From a virus: 29,651 nt of DNA. The translations under genes were made by a program, and so were the position numbers. The stretch lies in IMG/VR virus record IMGVR_UViG_3300046733_000124, positions 1 to 29,651 of that record, one strand, 5' to 3'. The notes beneath the pieces were generated by a model that did no database searches, was not told the DNA's origin, and was given only the letters and a program-made list of their open reading frames with translations. Positions 6,984-19,266 of this stretch are shown here, piece by piece. Numbering within the stretch: the stretch's first letter is position 1; every line of letters starts with the position of its first letter.

Positions 6984-7122
6984 CGAAAGCTGGGTAGGAC
7001 AATATGCATTTGTTAGTATTGTAGGCGATGCAAATGATTTATACAAAAGAGTAGATGACGCAGGTGGTACTATGGAAGCGCAAGCCTGTTTAGTAGAAAC
7101 ATTTAATAATTCAGTACAATGA
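6928..7122 (+). CDS. Small conserved structural protein (64 aa)
   Basis: 64 aa beginning MATGWGKVINNIGFGTIYNE, with a central hydrophobic WVGQYAFVSIVGDAND. The WGK.innIGFGtIY pattern recurs in short proteins between connector and fibre genes in Bacteroidota phages. It overlaps the first fibre gene by 4 bases (ATGA). A small tail or fibre-base component is likely by position; no domain has been assigned. Confidence 0.65.
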   Translation: MATGWGKVINNIGFGTIYNESWVGQYAFVSIVGDANDLYKRVDDAGGTMEAQACLVETFNNSVQ

Positions 7123-8426
7123 GTATTTACGACAAGGCAAGTTTAGTACATATCCCAAGCGGATATAGAAGTGGCACATTATACAATGTACTGCCTAATA
7201 ACGCTGATGGGGATTTCGATTTTTCAAGAGGTTCAACTGGGACACGAGTAAACAAAGACGGACTTATAGAAACCGTAGCAATAGGAGTACCAAGACTTAA
7301 CTACCCTTTATTAGACGGTGTTGTACAGGATTGTCCACATTTACTTTTAGAGCCTAGTAGGACTAATTTGATACCTTATTCAGAAGATTTTTCTAATAGT
7401 GGTTGGACTTTAGATAATACTACTGTTGTAGCAAATAGTGCTGTAAGTCCAGATGGTAGTTTAAATGCTGATAAGATAATTGCTACCGCAATAAATAGTT
7501 CGCACTCTGCATTTATTTCACTTTCATCATCAACATCGTCTGGCACATCTTATTGTTATTCATTTTTTGCTAAAGCCGAAGAATATACAAAGACAGCAAT
7601 ACGAATTGGTGGTGGTGGATATAGTTCTCAACCTATGGCTGTCATTAATCTTTTAAATGGTTCTGTTGTTAGTCAGCAAGGATTTATAAGTCTTTCTGTT
7701 AAAGATTTTAGTAACGGATGGTATAAAATTAATGCAGTTTTTACAGCAACATCATCAGTTGCACCAAACATTCAACCTATTGCAGATGGATTTACTACTA
7801 CATCAGATAATTACACCTACAATGGAGATGGAACAAGTGGAATTTACATTTGGGGCGCACAAATAGAAGAGGACTATCCAACATCCTACATACCAACAAA
7901 CGGAGAAGTAGGTGGTGTAACTCGTTCAGCAGATGCAGCCAATGGCGCAGAAGCAACCTTTAACGATAGTGAAGGGGTTTTGTATGCTGAAATTGCAAAA
8001 GACACCACAAGTGTAGATGGTGGTGTTGCTATAAGTGATAGTAGTTATACCAATAGAGTTTTATTTTACTTTGACATATCAGGTAATATCAGGGCATACG
8101 TTTATTCAAGTGGCGAACAAGCAAATATAATAACAAGCGGATTGGATTATACTCACAATAATAAACTTGCCTTAAAATACTCTGCTACATCTACTAAATT
8201 CTTTGTGAATGGTTTTCAGGTTGGTAGCACAGACACAAGTAGCATTATGCCTGTTGGATTATCAGAATTAGCATTTGATGATGGTGGAGGCGGTTCTGAC
8301 TTCTACGGAAACACAAAACAACTAATGACTTTTAACGAAGCATTAAGCGACACAGAATTGGAAGATTTAACATCTTGGGATAGCTTTAACGAAATGGCAA
8401 CAGAACAACTTTATACAATAGAATAA
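7119..8426 (+). CDS. Tail fibre/receptor-binding protein 1 (lectin-like)
   Basis: 435 aa, first of three tandem paralogues. It has a conserved N-terminal block (about 34-50, FSRGSTGTRVNKDGLIE; about 75-91, LLLEPSRTNLIPYSEDF), a variable central beta domain, a conserved junction at about 254-273 (TSYIPTNGEVGGVTRSAD), and a C-terminal concanavalin/LamG-like domain (about 285-415) ending with the signature FYGNTKQLMTFNEALSDTEL. LamG-type folds bind carbohydrates, so a role in receptor recognition at the cell surface is likely. It overlaps its neighbours by 4 and 1 bases. Confidence 0.75.
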   Translation: MSIYDKASLVHIPSGYRSGTLYNVLPNNADGDFDFSRGSTGTRVNKDGLIETVAIGVPRLNYPLLDGVVQDCPHLLLEPSRTNLIPYSEDFSNSGWTLDNTTVVANSAVSPDGSLNADKIIATAINSSHSAFISLSSSTSSGTSYCYSFFAKAEEYTKTAIRIGGGGYSSQPMAVINLLNGSVVSQQGFISLSVKDFSNGWYKINAVFTATSSVAPNIQPIADGFTTTSDNYTYNGDGTSGIYIWGAQIEEDYPTSYIPTNGEVGGVTRSADAANGAEATFNDSEGVLYAEIAKDTTSVDGGVAISDSSYTNRVLFYFDISGNIRAYVYSSGEQANIITSGLDYTHNNKLALKYSATSTKFFVNGFQVGSTDTSSIMPVGLSELAFDDGGGGSDFYGNTKQLMTFNEALSDTELEDLTSWDSFNEMATEQLYTIE

Positions 8427-9682
8427 TGGCAAAGACATTTAACTACGGAGCAGGTATATGGGCAACCAAGACAGGTTCGTCTATGGCGTATAACGACCAA
8501 AACGATAACTATAAACCGACACCTTTCAGCGTAACAAGGGATAGTATTGCCACAAGGGTAAACAAACAAGGGTTAATAGAAGTCGTAGGACAGGATAAAT
8601 TAAGAATTGACTACACAGACAGTTCAAATGGTGTTGCGCTTTTAGAACCGAGTAGGACTAACAGTTTACTACAATCCAATCAATTCGATACTACTTGGAC
8701 AACATCAAATGCAACTGTAACAAGTGGTCAGACAGGTGTTGGTGGAAGTACAGATGCTTGGCTTCTTACCGCATCGAGTACATCTAATTGTCGAATAAAT
8801 CAAAATGTTTCAGGTTCAGGAGTTCAATACATAAGCATATATGCAAAAGCAAATACATCTAATTTTTTAGCAATAAATACTATTGTTAGTGGCACTAATG
8901 CACTTGCTTATTTTGATTTATCAAAAGGAATTGTGGGCGATACAAATTCAGGAGTAATTGATGCTAATATTAAAAATGTTGGCGAAGGGTGGTATAGATG
9001 TTCTTTTACTTATAATGATACAAATACTCAAATAAGATTTCTTGTTGTTGATGCTAACGGTTCTATTGATGTTACATCTGGTAATTCTATTTACATACAA
9101 TATTCACAGCTTGAAGTAGGAAGCTATGCCACAAGTTACATTCCCACTTCAGGACAATCTGGGGGTGTTACAAGAGCAGCAGACGTAGCTAACGGAGCAG
9201 GAAACGAGCAGGTATTTAATGACAGCGAAGGAGTGTTGTTTGCTAACATAGCAGCTTTGGCTGATTACTTAACTTTTAGTGTTTTATCTATAAGTGATGG
9301 TGGAGTAACAAATAACGTTGGTTTTGGATATAGAACATCTTCAAATGTGATTTATACCTTTGTTGGTTCGTCTATAAATTCTTCTACAAGCGTAACAGTA
9401 AGCGATATAACGCTACAAAATAAAGTAGCTGTTAAATATAAAAGCGGTTTATTTGCTATGTGGATTAACGGATTTGAAGTTTACACATCTCCGACATCTT
9501 TTACAATAAGCGGTATTTCTCAACTATCACTTGATAATGGCGCAGGGGCAGCTGACTTCTACGGAAAAACAAAAGAAATTGGCTACTACGATGCGGTTTT
9601 AACAGATGCCGAACTTGAAGCACTAACAAGCTACACATCATTTACAAATATGGCTAACGAATTAAATTTAACAATTAAGTAA
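8426..9682 (+). CDS. Tail fibre/receptor-binding protein 2 (lectin-like)
   Basis: 418 aa, second paralogue. The N-terminus (MAKTFNYGAGIWATKTGSSM) differs from copy 1 and matches copy 3. It shares TRVNKQGLIEVVG, LLEPSRTNSLLQSNQF, the junction TSYIPTSGQSGGVTRAAD and a C-terminal LamG-like domain with FYGKTKEIGYYDAVLTDAEL. The central segment (about 85-225) is unlike copies 1 and 3. It is joined by TAATG one-base overlaps on both sides. Likely a surface-glycan-binding module; whether all three proteins are in one virion is unknown. Confidence 0.75.
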   Translation: MAKTFNYGAGIWATKTGSSMAYNDQNDNYKPTPFSVTRDSIATRVNKQGLIEVVGQDKLRIDYTDSSNGVALLEPSRTNSLLQSNQFDTTWTTSNATVTSGQTGVGGSTDAWLLTASSTSNCRINQNVSGSGVQYISIYAKANTSNFLAINTIVSGTNALAYFDLSKGIVGDTNSGVIDANIKNVGEGWYRCSFTYNDTNTQIRFLVVDANGSIDVTSGNSIYIQYSQLEVGSYATSYIPTSGQSGGVTRAADVANGAGNEQVFNDSEGVLFANIAALADYLTFSVLSISDGGVTNNVGFGYRTSSNVIYTFVGSSINSSTSVTVSDITLQNKVAVKYKSGLFAMWINGFEVYTSPTSFTISGISQLSLDNGAGAADFYGKTKEIGYYDAVLTDAELEALTSYTSFTNMANELNLTIK

Positions 9683-10875
9683 TGAGCAAGACATTTCAGT
9701 TTGGTAACGGAGAATGGGCAGTAGGAAAAGAAACTGCTCTTGCCTATAATGACGAGAACGGTAATTTTAAGCCACTACCTTTTACTTTTGACAGGGCATC
9801 AACAGCAACTGTTGTAAACAAAGATGGTTTAATAGAAACAGTAGGCACAGAAGAGCCACGTATTGACTTTTTTAACAACACTAATGGGCATTTGTTATTA
9901 GAGCCGAGTAGAACGAATAGCTTACCATATTCAAATGATTTCACAAACGCACGTTGGACTTCGGTATCAAGTGGCACAGGAAGTGCAGCAACAGTAACAG
10001 GAAATTATGCAATTTCGCCTGATGGTAGTCAAAACGCATCAAGATTACAAATAAGCAAAGGAAGTGGTACTACTTCAAGTGATTTTTCTGCTTTTCAGGA
10101 CACTTTTTCTAATATATCTACTGCAAGTTCATCTATATGGATAAAAAGTAACGACAGTAATACTTATAGTGTTGCGTTAAGGTCAAGTAATTATATAGTT
10201 TGTAGTGTAACACCTGAATGGCAAAGATTTGAATTAAACAACGAAATTAATATCGTTATTTTTCAATTAATTTTAAGGGGTGGCTATGGAACTTCTGATA
10301 GTGCTGATATTTTAATTTATGGCTCACAAGCTGAAAATGGAAGCTACGCCACTTCGTATATACCAACATCAGGACAATCTGGGGGTGTAACAAGGAGTGC
10401 GGATGTTTGTAATAATGCAGGTAACTCAAATGTATTTAATGATAGTGAGGGTGTATTGTATGCTAATATACAAGGTTTATCTGACGGAGATGACCCAACA
10501 GGATATATTTCATTAAGTGATGGTTCTTTTACAAACGCATTAATGATACAATACAGAAGCACTGGCGAATTAAGATTATATAATGGTGGCACTTCTACTG
10601 CTCAAATGATATATAGAGATGCTTCTGCTGACCTTACTGAAAATATCAATTTAGCCATACAATATGGCACGAGCGCAAGTGATTATAAAGTTTATATAAA
10701 TGGAGTTAGTAAAACAATAGAGGGTTCATTTATAGCAACATCTATGAGTGGTTTAGATGAATTTCAGTTTGCTTATCCTGTTAGTTCTGCAAACCCATTT
10801 TTAGGAAAAGTAAAAGACATAAAAGTTTATAACACAGCATTAAGCGATAGCGAATTACAAGCATTAACAAGTTAA
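9682..10875 (+). CDS. Tail fibre/receptor-binding protein 3 (lectin-like)
   Basis: 397 aa, third paralogue. The N-terminus MSKTFQFGNGEWAVGKETAL aligns with copy 2 and the LLLEPSRTNSLPYSNDF block with copies 1 and 2; the C-terminal LamG-like part ends NPFLGKVKDIKVYNTALSDS. It stops at ALTS and lacks the last 16-17 residues (SFxxMAxxx type) present in copies 1 and 2, so it is slightly truncated. The next bases hold a remnant reading frame and a homing endonuclease gene. A 20-base stretch around the junction is identical to copy 2 (9149-9168 and 10369-10388). Confidence 0.75.
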   Translation: MSKTFQFGNGEWAVGKETALAYNDENGNFKPLPFTFDRASTATVVNKDGLIETVGTEEPRIDFFNNTNGHLLLEPSRTNSLPYSNDFTNARWTSVSSGTGSAATVTGNYAISPDGSQNASRLQISKGSGTTSSDFSAFQDTFSNISTASSSIWIKSNDSNTYSVALRSSNYIVCSVTPEWQRFELNNEINIVIFQLILRGGYGTSDSADILIYGSQAENGSYATSYIPTSGQSGGVTRSADVCNNAGNSNVFNDSEGVLYANIQGLSDGDDPTGYISLSDGSFTNALMIQYRSTGELRLYNGGTSTAQMIYRDASADLTENINLAIQYGTSASDYKVYINGVSKTIEGSFIATSMSGLDEFQFAYPVSSANPFLGKVKDIKVYNTALSDSELQALTS

Positions 10876-10884
10876 TTTAATACA

Positions 10885-10908
10885 ATGAAATATATATTTA
10901 AGAAGTAG
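10885..10908 (+). pseudogene. Seven-codon remnant of the start of the gene at 11503
   Basis: ATG to TAG encoding MKYIFKK. The gene at 11503 begins MSKYIFKKYEYP, so KYIFKK occurs on both sides of the intervening GIY-YIG endonuclease gene. Five of the six shared codons differ at the third base while the amino acids are the same. The simplest explanation is that the endonuclease cassette entered at the 5' end of the gene and supplied a new, divergent start. Chance reuse of a short Lys-rich start cannot be excluded. Confidence 0.55.
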
Positions 10909-10909
10909 T

Positions 10910-11506
10910 ATGTTTTACGTTTATCTACATAAAAAACCAAATGGTCAGATATTCTATGTCGGAAAAGGCAAGGGATATAGAGCAACTCAAAAATGGAGTA
11001 GAAATCCCCATTGGAGAAGAGTGGTAGATAAATATGGTTATAACGTTACTATCTTTAAGGATAATATGACAGAGCAAGAAGCGTTAAATTTGGAAATAGA
11101 ACTTATAGAAGCTATTGGGTTAGATAACCTTACCAATTTAACTGTTGGTGGAGACGGCACTTCAGGGTTTAAACACAAAGCTGAAACCAAGCGCAAAATA
11201 GGTTTAGCTAATAGCGGAAGTTCGTCTTGGTCGAAAGGCAAGAAGTTTAGTGAAGAGCATAAGAAAAAAATATCAGATGCTCATAAGGGAAAAATAAAAT
11301 CATTAGAACACAGAGAAAAATTAGCAAAGGCATTAACAGGATTGACAGGTAAAAATTCAAGGAGAGGTAAACCCGTTTATTGCGGTATATTAAACAAGGA
11401 GTTTTACACGTTAAAAGAATGCTCTGAAGAATTAGGAATAGCATACGTAACAGCATTAAAAAATATAAAAAATAGTAACAATAAATATAAAATCAATTAC
11501 TTATGA
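10910..11506 (+). CDS. GIY-YIG homing endonuclease with NUMOD repeats
   Basis: 198 aa, free-standing endonuclease that would cut a specific site in related phages and spread its own gene. The N-terminal GIY-YIG domain (1 to about 80) shows FYVYLHKKPNGQIFYVGKGK with Tyr5, Tyr16 and the VGKG turn, plus Glu62 in ALNLEIELIEAIG as the likely metal ligand. It is followed by three NUMOD3-type DNA-binding repeats (about 88-103, 113-127, 132-146; consensus xxEhxxKixxxhkG) and a NUMOD1-like segment (EFYTLKECSEELGIA). It overlaps the next gene by 4 bases. A mobile intruder in the structural operon. Confidence 0.92.
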   Translation: MFYVYLHKKPNGQIFYVGKGKGYRATQKWSRNPHWRRVVDKYGYNVTIFKDNMTEQEALNLEIELIEAIGLDNLTNLTVGGDGTSGFKHKAETKRKIGLANSGSSSWSKGKKFSEEHKKKISDAHKGKIKSLEHREKLAKALTGLTGKNSRRGKPVYCGILNKEFYTLKECSEELGIAYVTALKNIKNSNNKYKINYL

Positions 11507-11907
11507 GCAAATACATTTTCAAAAAATATGAATATCCATCTCAAGATTTGGCAGAAACAAGAATAGCTGCTTTACCACATACAGAAGATGAGGAAGGCAA
11601 CGAACACCCTTCGCACAGCCATACGGTTGTTAAGCTAGGAAACGTAGTAGTAGAACAAGGTACTTATGACGAAGAAGGCGAAGAACTAACTGCGCCTGTA
11701 CTTGCTGACAAGTATTCTGTTGATGTACTATGGAAAGCTTCAGAGATTACAGAAGAAACAGAAGCTGCTGTACTTGATGAAGAAGGTAACGTAATTACTC
11801 CTGCGGTAACAGAGATTGACTACCCTTACGGTTGGGTGTCTAAAGAAATAGAAATAGAAGAAGGTAACGGCGTCCACACTTTCGCAGGTTGGTCTTATAG
11901 TAACTAG
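11503..11907 (+). CDS. Small acidic protein after the fibres (unknown)
   Basis: 134 aa, acidic, mainly beta. Recognisable pieces are HSHTVVKLGNVVVEQGTYDE, ADKYSVDVLWKA, and a C-terminal GVHTFAGWSYSN. The HxxVKLGxxx...KYxVDVLW...GVHxFxG pattern is familiar from small proteins between fibre and lysis genes in Flavobacteriia phages; no function is assigned. Its first codons appear to have been replaced when the upstream endonuclease gene inserted (compare 10885-10908). A virion accessory or fibre-associated role is possible from position only. Confidence 0.65.
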   Translation: MSKYIFKKYEYPSQDLAETRIAALPHTEDEEGNEHPSHSHTVVKLGNVVVEQGTYDEEGEELTAPVLADKYSVDVLWKASEITEETEAAVLDEEGNVITPAVTEIDYPYGWVSKEIEIEEGNGVHTFAGWSYSN

Positions 11908-18654: not shown

Positions 18655-18782
18655 AACGATTTATAAGCGATATGGAAACCATACAACTAGCAATAAAGCT
18701 AGGAGATTATGAAGATGCTTTAGAAATGCTACAAGAGGTTAAAGAAGAAATGATTATATTAGATGCATTAAATTATGAATAG
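18651..18782 (+). CDS. Small helical protein (43 aa)
   Basis: 43 aa: KRFISDMETIQLAIKLGDYE then DALEMLQEVKEEMIIL, an amphipathic helical hairpin. It starts in an ATGA overlap with the nuclease and stops at TAG inside the start of the HNH gene (ATGAATAG). If the HNH gene were removed between its ATG and the next gene's ATG, this frame would end one residue differently at TAA, so its C-terminus survives the insertion. Function unknown. Confidence 0.6.
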   Translation: MKRFISDMETIQLAIKLGDYEDALEMLQEVKEEMIILDALNYE

Positions 18783-19266
18783 AGAACAAATAGCATACGA
18801 GAAAGGATACAGAGTTACTAAAGGTGGGGACTTGTTAAACCCTAAAGGGACAAAAATAGGTTCTATAAATAATTACGGATATGAAAAGACTACTATAATA
18901 ATAAACGGTAAAGGTGTTGTTATTAAAACGCATAGATTACAAGCATACCAAAAATATGGCAATAAATTATATGAAGATGGTATTGTGGTTAGACATTTAA
19001 ATGGTAATTCTTTAGACAATTCTTTTAGTAATATATTAACAGGTACACAAGTAGACAACCTTAAAGATATACCTTTAAAACAAAGACAATTAAATGCATT
19101 GCAATCATCTTACAAAAGGATTAAGCACCCTAAAGAACTTGTTGATAAATTAAAAGAAGAATACAAAGTGTTAAAAAGCTATGCTAAACTATCAAGAAAG
19201 TTTAATTTAAGTTACGACACAACGTATTATTTAATAAATCAACGCAAAGTATTTAAAGATGCGTAA
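18775..19266 (+). CDS. HNH homing endonuclease (free-standing)
   Basis: 163 aa. The HNH core reads THRLQAYQKYG (His53), VVRHLNGNSLDN (His74, Asn76) and SFSNILTGTQ (Asn86). The N-terminal part (GYRVTKGGDLLNPKG) is the usual strand-turn of NUMOD4/HNH_3-type enzymes, and the C-terminus has a helix-turn-helix (YAKLSRKFNLSYDTTYYLIN) for DNA recognition. It would nick or cut related phage genomes and spread. It sits with 8-base overlaps at both ends, so it inserted without breaking either neighbour. Confidence 0.88.
   Translation: MNREQIAYEKGYRVTKGGDLLNPKGTKIGSINNYGYEKTTIIINGKGVVIKTHRLQAYQKYGNKLYEDGIVVRHLNGNSLDNSFSNILTGTQVDNLKDIPLKQRQLNALQSSYKRIKHPKELVDKLKEEYKVLKSYAKLSRKFNLSYDTTYYLINQRKVFKDA

Follow-up and report, generated by a model that had tools for sequence, protein, structure and literature searches.

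In the 29,651 nt of viral DNA analysed here (IMG/VR virus record IMGVR_UViG_3300046733_000124, positions 1-29,651; hereafter the window, the piece shown being 10,885-11,907), a free-standing GIY-YIG homing cassette is likely to have inserted in codon 8 of a tail-region gene, rescuing that gene with a substitute 5' end. The two parts of this reading differ in strength: insertion within the coding sequence, with rescue of the target by the substitute 5' end, can be held with high confidence, while resistance of the rebuilt junction to cleavage is somewhat favoured. The target would be complete without splicing because the cassette brings a spare, differently spelled gene beginning, and the carrier probably lacks a cleavable site because this replacement start rebuilds the left side in altered form. 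The features of the locus are as follows.

9682-10875, plus strand: upstream LamG/tail-protein gene (Laminin_G_3; phrog_5939, tail)
10885-10908, plus strand: left remnant, the displaced original target start, ATG...TAG encoding MKYIFKK-stop, identical to the uninterrupted start of endonuclease-free relatives
10906-10908, plus strand: left insertion junction TA/G, common to all seven carriers and three target backgrounds
10908-11528, plus strand: whole cassette as inferred from carriers versus empty sites, ~621 nt
10910-11506, plus strand: free-standing GIY-YIG (LEM-3-like) endonuclease with NUMOD3 DNA-binding motif, 198 aa
11503-11541, plus strand: replacement 5' end (MSKYIFKKYEYPS), delimited by codon comparison of the window with the empty gene L002
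11503-11506, plus strand: ATGA overlap of target start and endonuclease stop, read from the sequence
11503-11907, plus strand: target gene, 134 aa, between the LamG tail genes and an M15 peptidase/endolysin gene

At 10885-10908 the left frame (ATGAAATATATATTTAAGAAGTAG) reads ATG AAA TAT ATA TTT AAG AAG TAG, the first base of the cassette (G, 10908) converting the Tyr codon TAY of the target to TAG; the endonuclease ATG lies one base past this created stop (TAGTATG), and the inferred cassette comprises GT, the endonuclease gene and the replacement start through the TA of TAT. At 11503 the target begins ATG AGC AAA TAC ATT TTC AAA AAA TAT GAA TAT CCA (MSKYIFKKYEYP), the gene reading MSKYIFKKYEYPSQDLAETR, with one Ser codon added relative to the left remnant. 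The six residues common to remnant and new start, KYIFKK, are encoded by codons of which five differ, all in the third base. The preliminary description had reported a MKYIFKK-stop frame left of the GIY-YIG gene and five synonymous third-base differences over six residues, and both its coordinates and its codons are confirmed. The ATGA overlap at 11503-11506 points to probable translational coupling of endonuclease and target. The LamG gene, whose stop lies 9 nt 5' of the left remnant, is the third of three tandem LamG-type tail paralogs (window 7119-10875); it diverges strongly among close relatives, except in its last 60 nt, which like the target gene are conserved, and 7119-10875 is thus a recombination hot spot.

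The endonuclease matches the LEM-3-like GIY-YIG domain of Pfam (PF22945, E 2.7e-7, above the cut-off) and phrog_314, homing endonuclease (E 6e-23), and carries the homing-type DNA-binding motif NUMOD3 (E 1.6e-10). Comparison with solved GIY-YIG chains gave matches at E 0.09-0.55 only, and the structure model, at pLDDT 38, is unusable; relatives in an annotated phage collection are distant ones only (up to 50% over half the length), and none were found in a search of genome contigs. The target protein belongs to phrog_18574 (unknown). Its model (pLDDT 76) has no match in the PDB at E below 0.1 and one in BFVD at E below 0.001, to an unnamed viral protein, and no relatives were found in the annotated phage collection.

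The principal evidence comes from related loci that lack the endonuclease. A scan of IMG/VR with the downstream target protein returned 80 loci. In ~60 endonuclease-free loci of the target family the gene is continuous and starts shortly after the LamG stop or overlaps it, the typical uninterrupted start being ATGAARTATATATTTAARAARTAYGARTTT; the start is likewise continuous in ~37 endonuclease-free loci of a divergent branch (MELFKKYEFNSQEQAE, MKLFKK..., MAIFKK...), and ~99 endonuclease-free viral loci in all run uninterrupted past the insertion point (ATG...TTTAAGAARTAYGARTTT). The endonuclease-free gene reads ATG-AAA-TAT-ATA-TTT-AAG-AAR-TA/Y-GAR-TTT, the slash marking the position of the cassette in carriers, and thus it is in codon 8 that the coding sequence is interrupted. 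Over the left remnant of the window, and over the 18 nt 5' of it, the sequence matches the empty-site relatives: the remnant differs from the uninterrupted starts by 0-2 of 23 nt for most of them, and occupies the same position, a few bases past the upstream LamG stop. Among all loci compared, the stop-truncated MKYIFKK or MKLFKK is confined to the seven contigs carrying the endonuclease, two unrelated matches (MDNFKK-stop and MFKK-stop) being set aside. Neither of the two outcomes that the preliminary description named as refuting its model appeared: in relatives without the endonuclease one continuous gene opens with the left-side codons, and the two short frames never occur together. By this comparison the downstream gene originally began with the left frame, which the insertion has displaced.

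The left junction pattern TTYAARAARTAGTATGTTYTAYGT occurs in IMG/VR in exactly six contigs besides the window, every one a carrier (L008, L015, L016, L017, L023 and L085, the same contigs being duplicated as L135-L140). All seven share the junction TA/GTATGTTTTACG, with insertion after AAGAARTA, and the cassette is found in three target backgrounds and as two alleles; this is a small sample, four of the seven contigs having an identical cassette. In allele 1 (window and L008) the endonuclease has 198 aa, the replacement start is MSKYIFKKYEYPSQ and the target ATG lies within the endonuclease stop; in allele 2 (L015, L016, L017, L023 and L085) the endonuclease has 179 aa, the replacement start, MK(Y/H)LFRK, is ATGAAATATTTGTTCCGC or ATGAAGCATTTGTTCCGC, and the target ATG lies 11 nt past the endonuclease stop. 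The two endonuclease genes are ~90% identical in DNA across their first 333 nt and then diverge. At the protein level (window 10910-11506 versus L015:2453-2992) the nuclease domain and NUMOD3 are common and the C-terminal parts differ, allele 2 having a weak match to NUMOD1 (E 0.07), and each C-terminal part pairs with its own replacement start although the insertion site is identical for both alleles.

In every carrier a new ATG and divergent codons for the same first residues stand in frame with the resident gene at the insertion point. The allele-2 block TTGTTCCGC-AARTAYGARTT is absent from every contig shown to lack the endonuclease, and the replacement block TTGTTCCGCAARTAYGARTT is confined to the five allele-2 carriers together with contig L157, which starts inside it; the allele-1 block, among the loci compared, is restricted to the window and L008. 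L157 (positions 1-30 begin within the allele-2 replacement start) comes from the same sample as L085 and is probably a further carrier broken at the repeated cassette. In L085 the cassette sits in the divergent target, with a left remnant MKLFKK-stop like its own empty sites (MELFKK/MKLFKK), and directly past TTGTTCCGC the resident sequence resumes (AAATACGAGTTTAACTCACAAGAACAGGC, resuming at AAATACGAGTTTAACTC). The restriction of the replacement blocks to carriers, together with this reversion to resident sequence, indicates that the replacement start is part of the cassette. The earlier proposal that the insertion hit the 5' end of a gene and that the cassette supplied the replacement start is thus strongly supported by the comparison of endonuclease-free loci with carriers.

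The imported block is short. Against L002, the nearest empty gene, and with the added Ser dropped, the window differs in codons 3-6 and 10-12 and then in none until codon 80, which places the end of the block ~13 nt past the insertion point (11541). Between L015 and L023 the cassette shows 0/552 differences, the target gene 15/355 and the DNA 0.4-1.4 kb downstream 297/959 (~31%); between the window and L008 the cassette shows 7/594, the LamG gene 104/226 and the downstream DNA 476/871. Cassette identity so far above that of the flanks shows that the cassette spreads between genomes, with the reservation that the tail region is mosaic in general, such that exact tract lengths are uncertain and ordinary recombination could explain some of the shared identity. 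Presence and absence at one precise site are likewise seen in similar genomes, the carrier L008 being 100% identical to the empty loci L002 and L003 across 1 kb downstream and the junction being that of all seven carriers.

On the proposed mechanism, the predicted endonuclease would cut the empty site and repair of the break would copy the cassette, including the replacement start, into the recipient. The endonuclease would then be translated by termination-reinitiation from the old start of the target, and translation of the target would begin at the new start, with ATGA providing the coupling in the window (allele 1). The replacement start would restore the left-side sequence in altered form, keeping the protein and probably not rebuilding a cleavable site.

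Why the codons differ is less certain. Immunity through synonymous recoding is plausible: the original spelling joined to the resident right half would recreate an intact target site, and hence some protection is to be expected. A real possibility, although appreciably below even, is that insertion and replacement start are as described but that the codons are simply the 5' end of a donor phage homolog brought in by co-conversion, unselected for immunity, the insertion itself blocking re-cutting. Endonuclease-free homologs vary among themselves by 0-7 of 23 nt at the gene start, and the allele-1 replacement start lies 1 nt from that of L051 and 2 nt from those of L001 and L018, all three endonuclease-free. 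The right half is altered in allele 1 as well, with TATCCATCT in place of TTTGAAAGC, and the endonuclease-free L001 encodes YEYPSQELAE, the YEYPSQ spelling being that of allele 1 except for single bases. At least five differing codons of six are expected from the codon usage of the virus alone with P ~0.056, and the codon divergence of the window allele is, on these comparisons, within natural variation. Co-conversion would also agree with the fungal mitochondrial precedent, which has been attributed to horizontal transfer (PMC3630166). Against it stands the argument that an unaltered replacement start would recreate the site beside the resident right half, so that protection is logically needed, and also allele 2, which has TTG TTC CGC for ATA/TTA TTT AAG, including a change of K to R, in codons that are uncommon (frequencies 0.08, 0.16 and 0.035) and in a form present in no contig shown to be endonuclease-free. 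The allele-2 start lies at least 4 nt from every main-group empty start. It falls beyond the natural range seen, and this allele fits the immunity idea better than does allele 1. The preliminary description had held that synonymous divergence keeps the protein while destroying the cleavage site: the first part stands, KYIFKK being identical, and the second, in view of the allele-1 probability and of L051, is not established. On the simplest reading, the start in each cassette comes from some divergent homolog, and may have been retained since it rebuilds no cleavable site.

L001, from the comparison of YEYPSQ spellings, may belong to the lineage from which the window's replacement start came. 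Together with L006, L007, L032 and L043 it belongs to a set of endonuclease-free loci with A-rich leaders of 55-120 nt (versus 12 nt) before the target gene, which starts MKYLFKK or MKYIFKK. These loci were considered as former carriers and the idea was rejected, inspection of the leaders by eye having revealed no cassette remnant.

It is unlikely that the divergent spelling serves chiefly to keep a ~20-nt direct repeat from forming on either side of the gene, through which recombination could delete the cassette: the left remnant and the replacement start do share only short identical runs, a pattern which sequence alone cannot separate from the immunity reading, but so short a repeat would seldom recombine and its loss would merely restore the empty gene. 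It is far-fetched to regard the left frame as similar by chance, as what is left of a neighbouring paralog or as a leader peptide in its own right, for while the similarity of remnant and new-start peptides is not significant inside the window alone (score 32 versus a shuffle maximum of 33) and target-like genes may stand in tandem after LamG genes, as in L072, the significance of this similarity derives from the comparison with endonuclease-free relatives, in which the uninterrupted gene, at this same place, begins with exactly the left piece, and the truncated frame is restricted to carriers; a left frame unrelated to the downstream gene is refuted by the empty sites. Scarcely credible, too, is the idea that an intron or intein splices itself out and so joins the left codons back to the target, for although group I introns often harbour endonucleases of the GIY-YIG family, no group I or group II intron was matched in the insert by Rfam, an intron-borne endonuclease gene of the group I type being rejected with the absence of the RNA core, and the ORF, which has its own start and stop (against an intein), fills the insert, leaving 2 nt before its ATG and 0-11 nt to the new ATG. 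The two target-family copies of L072 (1536-1904 and 2986-3339) each follow a LamG gene, which suggests that LamG and target form a fixed tail gene pair.

The closest known systems are fungal mitochondrial mobile ORFs (mORFs), which form gene hybrids in Allomyces macrogynus atp6 and in Glomus atp6, atp9, cox2 and nad3, the endonuclease having been shown biochemically to be responsible for mobility in the earlier hybrids (PMC3630166). There, too, a free-standing endonuclease gene splits a coding sequence without splicing and supplies a foreign substitute for the displaced part, and the substitute is more diverged in DNA than in protein: in Glomus it has 64-81% DNA and 94-100% protein identity to the corresponding part in related species (PMC3630166), and in the window five of six codons differ with KYIFKK identical. 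In the fungal mORFs, however, the 3' end of the gene is replaced and the native C-terminus left downstream (PMC3630166), whereas the window cassette, in a phage, replaces the 5' end, displacing seven codons and leaving the native start upstream. It is an N-terminal mirror image of the Allomyces/Glomus type, in which the C-terminus is replaced, and we do not file it as a member. The free-standing Seg and Mob endonuclease genes of T4-like phages are mostly intergenic and cut a neighbouring gene, and some of them share bases with the ORF before them (UAAUGA for mobE), translational coupling being presumed (PMC2988022). The window cassette resembles intronless homing of the T4 Seg type in being a promoterless, operon-internal GIY-YIG gene of a phage with presumed break-repair mobility (PMC2988022), and is unlike Seg and Mob in its insertion inside the target coding sequence and in carrying a substitute 5' end. 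Free-standing endonuclease genes within phage coding regions are also represented by mobE in nrdA of phage Aeh1 and mobA in T4 gene 60, which split the gene into two assembling polypeptides (PMC2988022); by contrast, the downstream gene of the window is full length because its start is duplicated. In the open-licence literature 3'-end cases were found and neither a 5'-end replacement nor a phage case of gene-end replacement, an absence that carries little weight; compared with the known 3'-end-replacing mORFs, 5'-end replacement in a phage thus appears new relative to the literature searched.

Other relatives of the endonuclease (L086-L133 and L179-L190) were screened for duplicated flanking peptides, and most have none. 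In L126 (700-1360) an upstream gene, which from its sequence we read as terminase-like, ends in a divergent EHLPQNYSY-stop and a NUMOD3/HNH-type endonuclease ORF ends in DHLPQTFAY-stop, matching the native ending of terminase-like family members (QDHMPTTFAY-stop in L194, for instance); relatives of the upstream gene (n=30) end with similar LP..Y motifs, and L126 is a possible 3'-end mirror case in phage. In L120 (1891-2830), a candidate second 3'-end type, the upstream gene ends PIQLTKTNRLRG-stop, and immediately right of the endonuclease stands SVQLTKTNKLRG-stop in different codons; one relative, L224, with no endonuclease beside it, ends PIQLTKTNIIRKR-stop. L117 (2190-3420) has IMKTHIKLIKRL-stop before and IMKTHIKLIKRLK-stop after the endonuclease gene, the DNA being nearly identical and not recoded. 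The window itself has a second homing-type gene, HNH_3 (18775-19266). It overlaps a small ORF at either end, its start sharing bases with the stop of the upstream one (ATGAATAG), and inspection of its flanks by eye showed no peptide duplication.

We suggest tentatively, at a little below an even chance, that there exist in phages homing cassettes of a class that does without splicing, sits inside coding sequences and brings a replacement gene end re-spelled against cutting, the window representing the 5'-end type and L126 and L120 the 3'-end types. The usual assumption is that free-standing homing genes need intergenic sites, while introns and inteins permit insertion into genes; here a third route is seen in a phage, in which a substitute gene start is carried and the old start is used to drive the endonuclease. 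Empty and filled alleles occur together in phage, and the natural empty sites, two replacement alleles and three backgrounds make avoidance of self-cutting directly testable in vitro with short duplexes. In synthetic home-and-rescue gene drives, which are engineered, eukaryotic and involve whole or partial coding sequences, the wild-type gene is cut and a re-spelled functional copy is supplied with the drive, a logic shared with the window cassette, to which they have no relationship. If the proposed class is real, such phage cassettes would be a natural counterpart of home-and-rescue drives.
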